NCBI GenBank assembly: GCA_021817145.1
Contig: JAKAVV010000001.1
Span: 1 to 64,000 of the forward strand
Origin: a bacterium
Lineage (GTDB): Bacteria > Vulcanimicrobiota > JABDET01
DNA length: 64,000 nt
Direction of reading: 5' to 3'
Part shown: piece after piece, positions 26,675 through 54,859 of the stretch
How the letters are laid out: each line of letters begins with the position of its first letter
How positions within the stretch are numbered: position 1 is the first letter of the stretch
The notes under the pieces: model-generated
Told to the model about the DNA's origin: nothing
The model's input: only the letters and a program-made list of their open reading frames with translations
Databases searched by the model: none
Made by a program: the position numbers and the translations under genes

Positions 26675-27283
26675 ATGAACACATTCAGGGTTCTGGATCA
26701 GCTTGAGCAGATTATTCGCAGCAATCTCCATATACCTTTAACAGGGCTTGTTTTTATGGATGGAGAAAAAGTTTTAGCCGCTCTTGAAAAAGTAAGAGCT
26801 TCCCTTCCTGAAGAGTTAAAACATGCCCAGTTTTTGACTCAAGAAAATCAAAGGATTCTTCGAGAGTCCCAGGAAAAAGCAGAGCTCCTTTTAAAAGAAG
26901 CGGAAGAAAAAGCTAAAAAAATCGCGCAGGAAGCTGATGAAAGAGGAAAAGCCATCCAAAAAGCAGCTGAAGAAAGGGCTGATGCCATGATTAAGCTGGC
27001 TGAAGAACAAGCAGCCAGGAAAATTTCCGAAAGCGAAATTGTGAAACTGGCTCATGAACAAGCTTCACACCTAATGCAGCAGGCTGAACGGGCTTCTCGT
27101 GAAACAAAAGATGCGGCAGATCAGTATGCCAGTCAAGTGCTGACAAAATTAGAGCAGGAACTTCAAAGATTGGTATCTGTGGTTAGAAAAGGGAAAGAGA
27201 AGCTGGAAGAGGATAAGCGCGAATCTTCACTTATTCCTGATAATCCTCAGGACCAATTAAAAGAGATTATTGTTAAGGATTGA
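26675..27283 (+). CDS. coiled-coil protein with AEE/KAKK helical repeats
   Basis: The 202-aa protein has a short N-terminal region (residues 1-45, FRVLDQLEQIIRSNLHIPLTG). A long charged helix follows, rich in Glu, Lys, Ala and Gln (AELLLKEAEEKAKKIAQEAD), to about residue 185. It looks like DivIVA-like or V/F-ATPase stalk-like coiled-coil proteins, without a decisive motif. GAAGGAAG precedes the ATG. It lies 34 bp after coaD and is probably the last gene of the nusB operon. The function is unknown. Confidence 0.6.
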   Translation: MNTFRVLDQLEQIIRSNLHIPLTGLVFMDGEKVLAALEKVRASLPEELKHAQFLTQENQRILRESQEKAELLLKEAEEKAKKIAQEADERGKAIQKAAEERADAMIKLAEEQAARKISESEIVKLAHEQASHLMQQAERASRETKDAADQYASQVLTKLEQELQRLVSVVRKGKEKLEEDKRESSLIPDNPQDQLKEIIVKD

Positions 27284-27391
27284 CCTTAATGCCAATCCTT
27301 CTCCCACCAACCTCGTTTAACAAGCCAGTTTTTTAAATCGTGATAATTTTCCCAATCGATGGTGTGGGCTGTATGGAGAGAGTCCACAATG

Positions 27392-28030
27392 TCATAGCTG
27401 CGTGATAAGCGATTGGATTGTGGAAAAAGCAGAATGAGAGAAATCCCAAACCTTGTTTTTTGCTGCTTTTCCGAGGTCTCGATCTGGCTCATCAAAGGTT
27501 GCCAAAAAAGCATGAATTTTGGCTTTCCCTTGTTTATGTGGCGCAGGGCCCGGGCGGGGGCTACCTGTGTATAAGGTGCTTACTGCATTGTCAATAAACT
27601 CATTGGTGGGAATTATAAGTGGATCATTCACTGAGGCCTTCAAAAGCAAGTCCTCTAGTGAACCTTTTTCGTCGGGGTTTGGCAAGATAGCAACTGCTAC
27701 TTTTACTTTATCTGGCACAAATTCGTACGGCCTATCTGGCACCAATAGCTCGCTCTTCTTCAGGGCTTCACACACTGATTGGAATGCTCTATTTGGATTA
27801 TCGTCTGCATCGCGAACTACAGCTATGCTTGTCACAATTCCAAATCCGGCGGATTTTGCGAGCACAGGAAGATCTCTCAGGATCAAAGTTTTCCCTCCTG
27901 CAGGAATAATCTGAATGTCTGTCAATTTAAGGTAAGAAAGCATAGCCTCAAAAAACTCTTTCTCATGGTTTCCTTCTACGATCAAAAGTTTGCTCTTTTC
28001 AATAACAATTTTCTTATCGTGGCTGCTCAT
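27392..28030 (-). CDS. DUF3226-type TOPRIM-like protein, partner of the AAA ATPase
   Basis: The 212-aa protein begins LLIVEGNHEKEFFEAMLSYL, with the conserved Glu. An acidic cluster follows in VVRDADDNPNRAFQ (about residue 73), together the E...DxD pattern of TOPRIM folds. The end has KVWDFSHSAFSTIQSLI. TOPRIM proteins of this type are nucleases or ribonucleases paired with AAA ATPases in OLD and PARIS-like defence systems. Its ATG overlaps the stop of the upstream ATPase (ATGA), so the two are tightly coupled. Metal-dependent nuclease activity is inferred. It faces the nusB-coaD operon end. Confidence 0.72.
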   Translation of the reverse strand: MSSHDKKIVIEKSKLLIVEGNHEKEFFEAMLSYLKLTDIQIIPAGGKTLILRDLPVLAKSAGFGIVTSIAVVRDADDNPNRAFQSVCEALKKSELLVPDRPYEFVPDKVKVAVAILPNPDEKGSLEDLLLKASVNDPLIIPTNEFIDNAVSTLYTGSPRPGPAPHKQGKAKIHAFLATFDEPDRDLGKAAKNKVWDFSHSAFSTIQSLITQL

Positions 28031-29166
28031 CGAACTTCGATATCTGTTTCGATTGCTGCGGAGATTTCTTCAGGAGAATAATAAACTGCGCGCGTATGCC
28101 CGTCGATCAAGTCAAAACGATAAATTCGCAGATCGTTCAGATTTTCAATATTTGTTAGCGCATTATGAGCTGACCGAATACATTCTTCGCTGTGGGTTGT
28201 AGCAAAGACTTGGATATCCAGCTTTCTGGCGGTTTGAGAGAGCATACTCCAAACTTTTGGCAGACTAGAATAATAGAGGCCGCTTTCAATTTCATCAACC
28301 AGAACAAGACCTCCCCGTGTGGTAGCCATGGACAGAGCGATTGATAAAATCCGAAGCATCCCATCTCCCATTAGTGCCAGCGGCATGAGGTGAGGATCTC
28401 CGATATCAGCATAAAACCCAATTCTTGGTTCTTTTTCGGTAGCCAAGAGGTGCAGGTTCTTAATTCTTGGATCCAGCGTCTGCAGCACACTTAATACTTC
28501 TCCAGTTCGCCGTTCAATCTCAAGTTTGCTGTATCGCAGAGCTTCTGACTGCGGATTATGGATGCCTCTAGATGGCAGGAAGGCTGCGGGCAATTTTTTG
28601 ATTGATTGAAGATCCGCGAAGCCTCCCTGGTTAGGAGCAAGGCTTATCACTGGCACATTTATCTTTTGTTTGGGATCTGTCGAATCCTTTAGATCGTAAA
28701 TGAAATTAAGACCACTGACCTGCTTGAGAGAGTCCGTATTCTCCACAACAGCAGGTAAAGAGGTTTGCAAGGTTGGCTCGTTGCCTGTGGGAGAAACAGG
28801 ATATCGGAAGCCGTTCTGCGCATCGCTGACGGTGATAGGGCTTATTCTCAAATTGTACTTCTCGTGCTTGGCTTCATGCCTCGCAAACCCTTCAGCTTCA
28901 ACCACAATTGCATTCTCACTTTCCCAGTTATAGAAGAACGAACTCCAGATCTCAGAAGAATTCGATCCAGAGGGGTAGCCACGCAAAGCGTTCAGCGCAG
29001 CAAGGAGATCTGGGATAGGCATAAGGGGAAACAAGAGAGATAGAGCTTCGAGAGCAGCGGTTTTCCCGGAATTGTTTTTGCCAACGAGAAGATTGATTCG
29101 ACCTAGCCCTTCCAGACTCACCGACTTGTGGCATCTGTAATTTTGGATGGCAACCTTCTCGATCAT
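28027..29166 (-). CDS. AAA_15/21-family ATPase (OLD/PARIS AriA-like)
   Basis: I start it at the ATG at 29166 (MIEKVAIQNYRCHKSV), the usual start of ABC/SMC-like defence ATPases; 379 aa. Walker A is LVGKNNSGKTAALEAL near residue 30. Walker B is LVLVDEIESGLYYS near 288. The signature-like GDGMLRILSIALSMA and the H-loop FATTHSEECI are present. Family members include OLD nucleases, AriA and RloA. The overlap with a DUF3226 TOPRIM gene makes a two-gene split OLD-like module. An upstream AAGGAG is 15 bp from this ATG, so the start is slightly uncertain. It begins 35 bp after the amidase gene ends. Confidence 0.78.
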   Translation of the reverse strand: MIEKVAIQNYRCHKSVSLEGLGRINLLVGKNNSGKTAALEALSLLFPLMPIPDLLAALNALRGYPSGSNSSEIWSSFFYNWESENAIVVEAEGFARHEAKHEKYNLRISPITVSDAQNGFRYPVSPTGNEPTLQTSLPAVVENTDSLKQVSGLNFIYDLKDSTDPKQKINVPVISLAPNQGGFADLQSIKKLPAAFLPSRGIHNPQSEALRYSKLEIERRTGEVLSVLQTLDPRIKNLHLLATEKEPRIGFYADIGDPHLMPLALMGDGMLRILSIALSMATTRGGLVLVDEIESGLYYSSLPKVWSMLSQTARKLDIQVFATTHSEECIRSAHNALTNIENLNDLRIYRFDLIDGHTRAVYYSPEEISAAIETDIEVR

Positions 29167-29201
29167 GATTAGGAATAGTTTCTCCTTGCCCTGAAGGCGC
29201 T

Positions 29202-30074
29202 TTAATGCGATATGCTGGCAATGGCTTCGTACATTTCCGGTCTTCGATCTCGAATAAACTGCCACTGCACTCTAACCTCTTCGATCAGATCTAAATCCAG
29301 ATCCGCGACAATCAATTCGTCTTTGTCACGGCTCCCTTCCGCTAATGTTTTCCCTCTGGGATCGCAGAAATAACTCTGCCCATAGAATTCTCCAATCTTC
29401 CAGGGTGTTTCATATCCAACTCGATTAATGGTTCCTACAAAATATCCATTGGCAACCGCGTGAGAAGCCTGCTCTAATTTCCACAGATATTCAGATAAGC
29501 CGGCAACTGTTGCCGATGGGATAAAAACCACTTCAGCTCCATTGAGTCCTAAGATTCTAGCCCCTTCAGGGAAATGGCGATCATAACAGATATAAACTCC
29601 AACTTTTGCGTAAGCTGTATCAAAAACAGGATACCCCAAATTTCCAGGTTTAAAATAATACTTTTCCCAGAATCCAGGAGGGCAGTGGGGAATATGAGTT
29701 TTTCTATATTTTCCAAGATATTTTCCATCCGCATTGATGACAGCAGCTGTATTGTAATAAACTCCTGTCATTTCTTCTTCGTAAACAGGAACCACGAGGA
29801 CCATCTGGTATTTTTTTGCCAGTTCAGCCATCTTTTCAGTGGTTGGTCCAGGAACTGGTTCAGCCATTTTATACCATTTAGGGTTCTGCTCAGCGCAGAA
29901 GTAAGGCCCATTAAAAAGTTCCTGATAGCAGAGGATCTGCGTGTTCTTTTTAGCAGCTTCTTCAGTTAATTTGATGTTTTTATCCATCATGTGTTTTTTG
30001 ATCTCTTCTAAAGAAGAATCCCCTGATTTTTCGCATTTCACTTGGATTAACCCGCACTTTACAAGCCTGGACAT
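29202..30074 (-). CDS. carbon-nitrogen hydrolase (N-carbamoylputrescine amidase / beta-ureidopropionase-like)
   Basis: The 290-aa nitrilase-superfamily protein carries the Glu-Lys-Cys triad: ILCYQELFNGPYFC (Glu near 50), YRKTHIPHCPPG (Lys near 125) and VGVYICYDRHFPEGAR (Cys near 160). The long loop FWEKYYFKPGN is typical of the N-carbamoylputrescine amidase / beta-alanine synthase branch. It would hydrolyse an N-carbamoyl amine, in polyamine or pyrimidine breakdown. GAAAGGGG lies before the ATG at 30074. Confidence 0.85.
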   Translation of the reverse strand: MSRLVKCGLIQVKCEKSGDSSLEEIKKHMMDKNIKLTEEAAKKNTQILCYQELFNGPYFCAEQNPKWYKMAEPVPGPTTEKMAELAKKYQMVLVVPVYEEEMTGVYYNTAAVINADGKYLGKYRKTHIPHCPPGFWEKYYFKPGNLGYPVFDTAYAKVGVYICYDRHFPEGARILGLNGAEVVFIPSATVAGLSEYLWKLEQASHAVANGYFVGTINRVGYETPWKIGEFYGQSYFCDPRGKTLAEGSRDKDELIVADLDLDLIEEVRVQWQFIRDRRPEMYEAIASISH

Positions 30075-54014: not shown

Positions 54015-54607
54015 GAAAGAGGGTATCCGGGATTATGAGGGGCTTAAGGATTTTCTTGGGCCCAAGGACAGGATTTGTTTTGTAGATGGGATGCATCCTT
54101 ACCATAATGCGATGCCCGCGCGCGGATGGATTGAGAAGGGGAGTAACAAAGAGATTCCAACGAATACGGGGCGGGAACGAATGAATCTCAATGGAGTGTT
54201 ATGTTTGAACACGCCAGATGGGCCTGAGATTATTGTTCGAGAAGAGGAACGAATCAATGGGCCAGCGATGGTTGAATTATTGAAAGAGATTGAGGGAAAA
54301 AATCCTGAGGCGGAGCGGATTGTGTTGATTTTAGATAATGCGCCGTATAATCGGTCCAAGAGAGTGAAAGAATACCTTGAAACATCGAAGGTTGAGGTGT
54401 GGTATTTGCCACCTTATTCACCAAATTTAAATTTGATTGAGCGATTATGGAAATTTTTGACAGCAAAGTGATGCGGGGGTATTATTACAAAAAATTTGCA
54501 GTGTTCCAGGCAGCGGTGCGGGGGTTCTTTGCTAAAGCAGCCACGCTGTATCGTGATGAATTGAAACGCTTACTCACAGAAAAATTTCAACTGGTTAACA
54601 GCAGCTA
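54015..54607 (+). pseudogene. IS630-family transposase remnant, N-terminus missing, frameshifted
   Basis: The DDE domain is recognisable: ICFVDGMHPYHNAMPARGWI with the first Asp, LILDNAPYN with the second, and YLPPYSPNLNLIERLWKF with the final Glu. The two N-terminal helix-turn-helix domains are absent; IS630 similarity begins near RQKEGIRDYEG. At 54454-54458 a run of five T should be six. With one T restored, the frame continues VMRGYYYKKFAVFQAAVRGF to the TAA at 54605-54607. It cannot encode an active enzyme unless slippage rescues the frame. Confidence 0.75.
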
Positions 54608-54628
54608 AATTTCGCAAACCATTTTTAG

Positions 54629-54859
54629 TTGAGTATAGAAGGCTCAAACCAACCCGTAACCTCTCCCTGGTTGCCGGATGGTCACGGCAATCTGGGGAGC
54701 GTATTTCGATTCGTGGAAGGAGCTTTTTTCCTTCCAGACAAAAAACAAACCATGATGTGGCCTTCTGTGGGCCTGACAACGGATACGATCAACGGCACGG
54801 AAGTAACCCGTCAACTTGGCGTTTACCAGTTAAGGCATCGCCTTGTCCTGAAAGAATAA
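54629..54859 (+). pseudogene. C-terminal fragment of an unidentified protein
   Basis: A GC-richer frame reading WLPDGHGNLGSVFRFVEGAF and MMWPSVGLTTDTINGTEVTR up to a TAA at 54857-54859. The first residues (54629 on) derive from the IS630 side, and no ribosome site is seen. It looks like the tail of a gene cut by the IS630 insertion. I do not recognise the family. It is convergent with the ketoisomerase pseudogene and of similar base composition. Confidence 0.4.

Follow-up and report, generated by a model that had tools for sequence, protein, structure and literature searches.

The window, the whole 64,000-nt stretch of DNA that was analysed, carries two adjacent minus-strand genes, one encoding an ABC-type ATPase and the other, directly downstream, a DUF3226 protein (Table 1). 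The pair lies between a coaD/coiled-coil ORF, which ends at 27283, and a TIGR03381-like CN_hydrolase gene (29202-30074). This placement had been given in a preliminary description of the locus, together with the coordinates, the ATGA overlap and the Walker A, Walker B (LVLVDEIESGL) and H-loop (TTHSEE) motifs of the ATPase, all of which we confirmed in the sequence. Judging from the sequence, the overlap likely couples translation of the two genes, and at most related loci they are likewise separated by small overlaps or gaps of a few nucleotides. A 75-aa ORF with no Pfam match (27286-27513, minus strand, terminus ...IDWENYHDLKNWLVKRGWWEKDWH) overlaps the 3' end of the DUF3226 gene out of frame and could be the leftover of another gene.

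A Pfam scan identified the ATPase as AAA_15/AAA_21, although the protein belongs to the ABC/RecF/Rad50 class and "AAA" is merely Pfam's name for it. The small protein matched PF11536 (DUF3226) at 2e-31 and also, weakly and under the family cut-off, PF20469 OLD-like_TOPRIM (9.7e-4).

Table 1. Features of the ATPase-DUF3226 locus, in window coordinates.
Feature	Position	Strand	Observation or proposed role
ABC-type ATPase, 379 aa (PDC-M38A / AAA_15-AAA_21 / AbiLi-like)	28027..29166	-	proposed sensor and inhibitor
DUF3226 protein, 212 aa (PDC-M38B)	27392..28030	-	predicted two-metal Toprim nuclease effector
ATGA stop/start overlap, ATPase TGA on DUF3226 ATG	28027..28030	-	sequence
E19 of DUF3226, metal A ligand (= BpOLD E400)	27974..27976	-	E in 75/75 homologues
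E23 of DUF3226 (= BpOLD E404), four residues past E19		-	D/E in 75/75 homologues
D74-A-D76 of DUF3226, DxD motif (= BpOLD D455/D457)	27803..27811	-	76/76 and 73/76
E126 of DUF3226, metal B ligand (= BpOLD E508)	27653..27655	-	76/76
K169 of DUF3226, candidate catalytic lysine (= BpOLD K562)	27524..27526	-	73/73
Walker A GKNNSGKT, ATPase residues 29-36	29059..29082	-	73/73 conserved, partly by construction (GKNNSGK served as retrieval pattern)
Walker B and catalytic Glu, ATPase residues 287-292, D291-E292	28291..28308	-	D and E 73/73
H-loop TTHS, ATPase H325	28189..28203	-	H 73/73
E377-V378-R379 tail, last residues of ATPase	28030..28038	-	candidate partner-specific dock/latch
Segment absent from sister species, 1,918 bp	27284..29201	.	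empty site in G001

Alignment of 76 DUF3226 homologues revealed the full OLD-type Toprim two-metal residue set in near-invariant form. The Glu and DxD pattern noted earlier in the small protein corresponds to E19 and D74-A-D76, and the distance from the Glu to the DxD is 55 residues in DUF3226 and in BpOLD alike. In BpOLD, E400, E404, D455, D457 and E508 are the metal A/B ligands and K562 is the catalytic lysine, and the set is needed for activity (PMC6755086). The DUF3226 residues, which we matched to both reference proteins by motif order and spacing without superposition, also correspond in order to E374, D378, D460, D462, E515 and K562 of the retron-Eco2 Toprim. Mutants of these residues lose defence, and RNase activity is strongly reduced in those of E374 or D378 (PMC12405507).

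The AlphaFold2 model of DUF3226 was confident (pLDDT 94.3). When it was compared with the PDB using Foldseek, the top match was the BpOLD Toprim (6nk8; E 3.5e-4), which alone fell below 1e-3 and had a modest TM-score of about 0.45; retron-Eco2, AriB of PARIS and TsOLD followed in that order. A profile search of the PDB retrieved PH0156 (2p62; 2e-4), a solved protein of the DUF3226 kind. The same search returned TAL-effector matches, which we rejected as repeat artefacts with per-domain scores of 1-4 bits. On the strength of residues and model, DUF3226 is a predicted two-metal Toprim nuclease. By analogy, its target is somewhat more likely to be RNA, perhaps tRNA, than DNA, since the closest two characterised free or effector Toprims, AriB and retron-Eco2, are RNases. 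We also weighed a variant, differing by target, of the explanation preferred below, namely that DUF3226 is a DNA-cleaving OLD nuclease, split from its ATPase by happenstance, that hits phage DNA and is not a host-directed RNA toxin. Its active-site set equals that of BpOLD, a DNA nuclease and the best Foldseek match; however, the pair has no GajB-like helicase partner and the same residue set works as an RNase in Eco2, and we think this variant rather doubtful.

The ATPase has a degenerate ABC signature (GDG). Its AlphaFold2 model (pLDDT 88.8) matched Rad50 most closely in Foldseek, along with PtuA, TsOLD and GajA. All 73 aligned ATPases share a C-terminal Glu-hydrophobic-Arg, with E and R invariant and at most two residues after. 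This tail occurred in 0 of 30 comparison ATPases from the same phylum; nearly all of these have other effectors as partners, mostly DUF4276, and they include two RloB, one DUF4435 and two AbiLi-model matches. Of 387 neighbouring ORFs, 1 ended in such a tail. The tail, well ordered even in the monomer model, may serve DUF3226 as a docking site or latch, although shared ancestry of the ATPase clade would alone be sufficient to explain its invariance. The genome that contains the window also harbours two more split modules of an ATPase with DUF4276, a Toprim-like effector (G000:C10:38635-39195 and 54017-54658; L120 and L101), and the ATPase C-termini of these are of a different type.

Using an alignment of the window ATPase and a paralogue from contig C19 of the same genome, we searched 85,000 prokaryotic genomes and analysed the best 80 of 246 relatives, which came from about 16 phyla and included one archaeon. 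The ATPase served as the probe because no part of the DUF3226 alignment was sufficiently conserved for such a search. Selection relied on the Walker A and SEIWxSxF motifs and on ATPase similarity, and took account of neither the partner nor the C-terminus; the 80 loci represent the ATPase clade nearest the window rather than every DUF3226 locus. A DUF3226 ORF lay directly downstream of the ATPase at 75 of the 80, and each of these 75 matched PF11536. Shortened DUF3226 genes were present at two further loci, one at a contig end (L045) and one decayed (L069). DUF3226 was missing from L074 and L089, where the ATPases are disrupted, and from L023. No fused ATPase-DUF3226 ORF occurred at any of the 80 loci. 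The pairing is obligate, and its origin by chance is far too unlikely given full-length homologous pairs in about 16 phyla. The ATPase tree clusters by phylum, but on supported branches the archaeon and Geobacter fall inside Pseudomonadota, and gut Bacteroidota enclose Endomicrobium and Fibrimonadales. Such cross-phylum nesting is in keeping with horizontal transfer. In some lineages (Microcystis, Pseudanabaena) the pair has been vertically retained at one place.

Comparison with G001, a sister species of the same genus, revealed a clean empty site, in which just 3 bp separate the coiled-coil ORF from the CN_hydrolase gene; relative to G001, the pair lies within an extra segment. We found no flanking repeats or transposase at 27284..29201 as a means of insertion. 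DUF3226 was present in 2 of the 148 genomes sampled from the phylum. The C19 copy in the window's own genome (L014, 7872-9050) lies beside atpA; its ATPase is 54% identical and has an internal deletion, and an IS-like insert interrupts its DUF3226 at about codon 25. Several other loci have also decayed, including one on an Acinetobacter plasmid (L138). The pair occurred on 141 plasmid records, mostly Klebsiella ColE1-type plasmids of 4.1-4.2 kb, on which it accounts for most of the coding sequence, with just rop and an HTH gene besides. A 4.7-kb relative of these plasmids, from E. coli isolates, carries it too; small hospital plasmids are among the carriers. The 4.1-4.2 kb Klebsiella plasmids, which are widespread and of the pKpn114 type (L003, L005, L137), may owe their persistence to the pair, their principal cargo. 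On a Plesiomonas plasmid the pair adjoins phage tail genes. None of 50,697 phage records gave a DUF3226 match, and scans of viral contigs yielded no confirmed relative, which at their low sensitivity is weak evidence of absence. The empty site, the 2 of 148 genomes, the IS-cut second copy and the plasmid carriage together establish the pair as accessory and sporadic. The preliminary description had named two findings that would count against it, a small protein without a Toprim fold or acidic site and universal conservation of the pair; we found both the fold and the acidic site, and the pair occurs sporadically, not universally.

Carriage on small plasmids raises the question of addiction, in which the ATPase would be an antitoxin and DUF3226 a toxin, the pair would spread by stabilising plasmids and itself, and phage defence would be incidental. 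The share of coding content that the pair occupies on the Klebsiella ColE1 plasmids and the overlap of the genes both fit such a role, and AAA/TOPRIM_OLD pairs do act as toxin-antitoxin systems in E. coli (PMC10440598). However, the ATPase is elaborate and fully conserved, which suggests a sensor over a simple antitoxin, and chromosomal copies are common. We therefore regard addiction as an unlikely explanation.

The preliminary description had looked to defence islands for corroboration, but any association is weak at best. In a descriptive survey without a matched control set, the immediate neighbours of the 80 loci (135 ORFs) were mostly housekeeping genes. The few defence neighbours comprised PglZ at 3 loci and single ZorD/DpdE-like and methyltransferase matches. 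One truncated related ATPase (G004:C241, L015) lies beside DUF499 and genes that we ourselves read from their sequences as DarT/DarG-like, and its surroundings are likely a defence island. In a pattern that we picked out post hoc, the pair sits next to purH and purD, or between them, in Competibacteraceae, in a betaproteobacterium and in Methylotenera, whose ATPases belong to separate clades of the tree; in Methylomonas it adjoins purB (pur-gene loci L043, L055, L057, L079, L097; L070, L085). These sites possibly represent an insertion hotspot or a tie to purine synthesis. The housekeeping neighbours also include gyrA.

Solo occurrence among genes such as purH-purD, purB and gyrA, together with an ATPase model nearest to Rad50, would suit a host genome-maintenance pair of a Rad50-like ATPase and a nickase, as proposed for archaeal Cran1 (PMC12796447). 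The pair is nonetheless sporadic: the sister species lacks it, as do 146 of the 148 sampled genomes of the phylum. Its decayed copies are frequent, and some copies are plasmid-borne. A maintenance role seems to us improbable.

The preliminary description had called the module undescribed; both parts were in fact already catalogued in PADLOC-DB 2.0.0 (2023). The ATPase matched PDC-M38A (PDLC04611) over residues 1-379 with an E of 1e-56, and the DUF3226 protein matched PDC-M38B (PDLC04624) over residues 1-204 with an E of 5.2e-16; 73 of the 76 DUF3226 homologues matched a PDC-M38B model. PDCs were found via guilt-by-embedding, and most await experimental validation (PMC12988326). Our literature search found no paper naming DUF3226 or PDC-M38 and no functional, activity or phage study. 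The pair is real and well formed, a split-OLD-type candidate that was already on record. This analysis adds the identification of the DUF3226 active site, the invariant C-terminus of the ATPase, the empty site in the sister species and the predominance of housekeeping genes nearby.

Starting from what was computed (the pair, its coupling, the folds, the active-site set and the accessory distribution), we infer by analogy an inhibition of DUF3226 by the ATPase, a trigger, a target and a role in defence. The pair is probably a two-gene immunity module that resembles a split OLD system in the manner of PARIS, with an ATPase as sensor and a Toprim nuclease as effector. In the resting state, the dimerised ABC ATPase would keep the DUF3226 Toprim nuclease inactive. 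An infection-linked trigger would shift the ATPase to another nucleotide or assembly state; DUF3226, thus activated or released, would cut nucleic acid by two-metal catalysis using E19, E23, D74, D76 and E126 with K169. Phage growth would be halted at the cell's expense, following the logic of abortive infection or of a toxin-antitoxin system. In PARIS, detection of a phage protein by AriA frees AriB to cut tRNA (PMC12409363), and in E. coli AAA/TOPRIM_OLD pairs the AAA protein neutralises the TOPRIM_OLD toxin (PMC10440598); the proposal that the ATPase restrains the nuclease is drawn from these analogies.

A defence role is favoured by the PDC-M38A/B and AbiLi matches, the pairing at 75 of 80 loci, the near-invariant active site and the Foldseek order, as well as by the accessory behaviour, the cross-phylum nesting and the phage-tail neighbours in Plesiomonas. 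Against it stand the housekeeping neighbours, the lack of DUF3226 matches among the 50,697 phage records, the vertical retention in Microcystis and Pseudanabaena and the modest Foldseek TM-scores (0.45). Fused OLD homologues can, moreover, have roles in the host, as proposed for Cran1 (PMC12796447). More tentatively, and with appreciable doubt on our part, DUF3226 pairs might form a distinct split-OLD class in which the ATPase tail docks or latches its own partner specifically and so marks cognate pairs, and which enters housekeeping operons as a lone cassette (purH-purD more than once) and not defence islands.

These results offer a mechanistic reading for the catalogued candidate PDC-M38 and for DUF3226, and the six DUF3226 residues and three-residue ATPase tail are directly mutable. 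Because the pair resides on natural small plasmids of E. coli and Klebsiella, a test in E. coli should be easy. The neighbourhoods suggest that such modules can escape guilt-by-association searches keyed to defence islands.

Among known systems, PDC-M38 shows no structural difference from the window pair, both genes matching its A/B models over nearly their full length; it is a candidate-stage system that spans several effector models, with DUF3226 corresponding to PDLC04623/04624. In PARIS, a class 4 OLD system, the ABC ATPase and the Toprim nuclease are likewise encoded by separate, successive genes in that order; AriB ranks third among the Foldseek matches of DUF3226, and AriA profiles match the ATPase (7e-26), as do the GajA profiles of PADLOC. 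The window effector, however, is PF11536 and not PF14491/DUF4435, with no AriB profile match. AriB, which carries DUF4435, is larger than the DUF3226 protein, at about 300 aa. AbiL of Lactococcus also consists of two genes, for an ATPase and an OLD-type Toprim, and confers abortive infection; its AbiLi model (PDLC02336) matches our ATPase end to end (8.7e-50, PADLOC). AbiLii is described as RloB-type (PMC10440598), whereas the window DUF3226 protein has no RloB (Pfam) or AbiLii (PADLOC) match, although weak matches to the AbiLii model occur in 10 of the 76 homologues. OLD classes 1/2 (TsOLD, BpOLD, GajA) and retron-Eco2 have the Toprim site E-x3-[DE], DxD, E, K in common with DUF3226, and the ABC ATPase is common to OLD and the window pair. 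OLD and GajA are single fused polypeptides, in contrast to the two genes without helicase seen here, and in retron-Eco2 the Toprim is fused to a reverse transcriptase, which the pair lacks. Nor is the locus Gabija, since the genes are separate and we found no downstream UvrD-like GajB helicase in the flanks. What the window does contain is an ABC ATPase with Walker A/B, H-loop and OLD/GajA/Rad50 fold matches, next to a separate Toprim gene with the E, DxD and second-metal residues, as in a split OLD (class 4-like) system. The fold, the complete active site and the obligate pairing all support the earlier view, in which DUF3226 is the Toprim effector of an OLD-like pair split into two genes.
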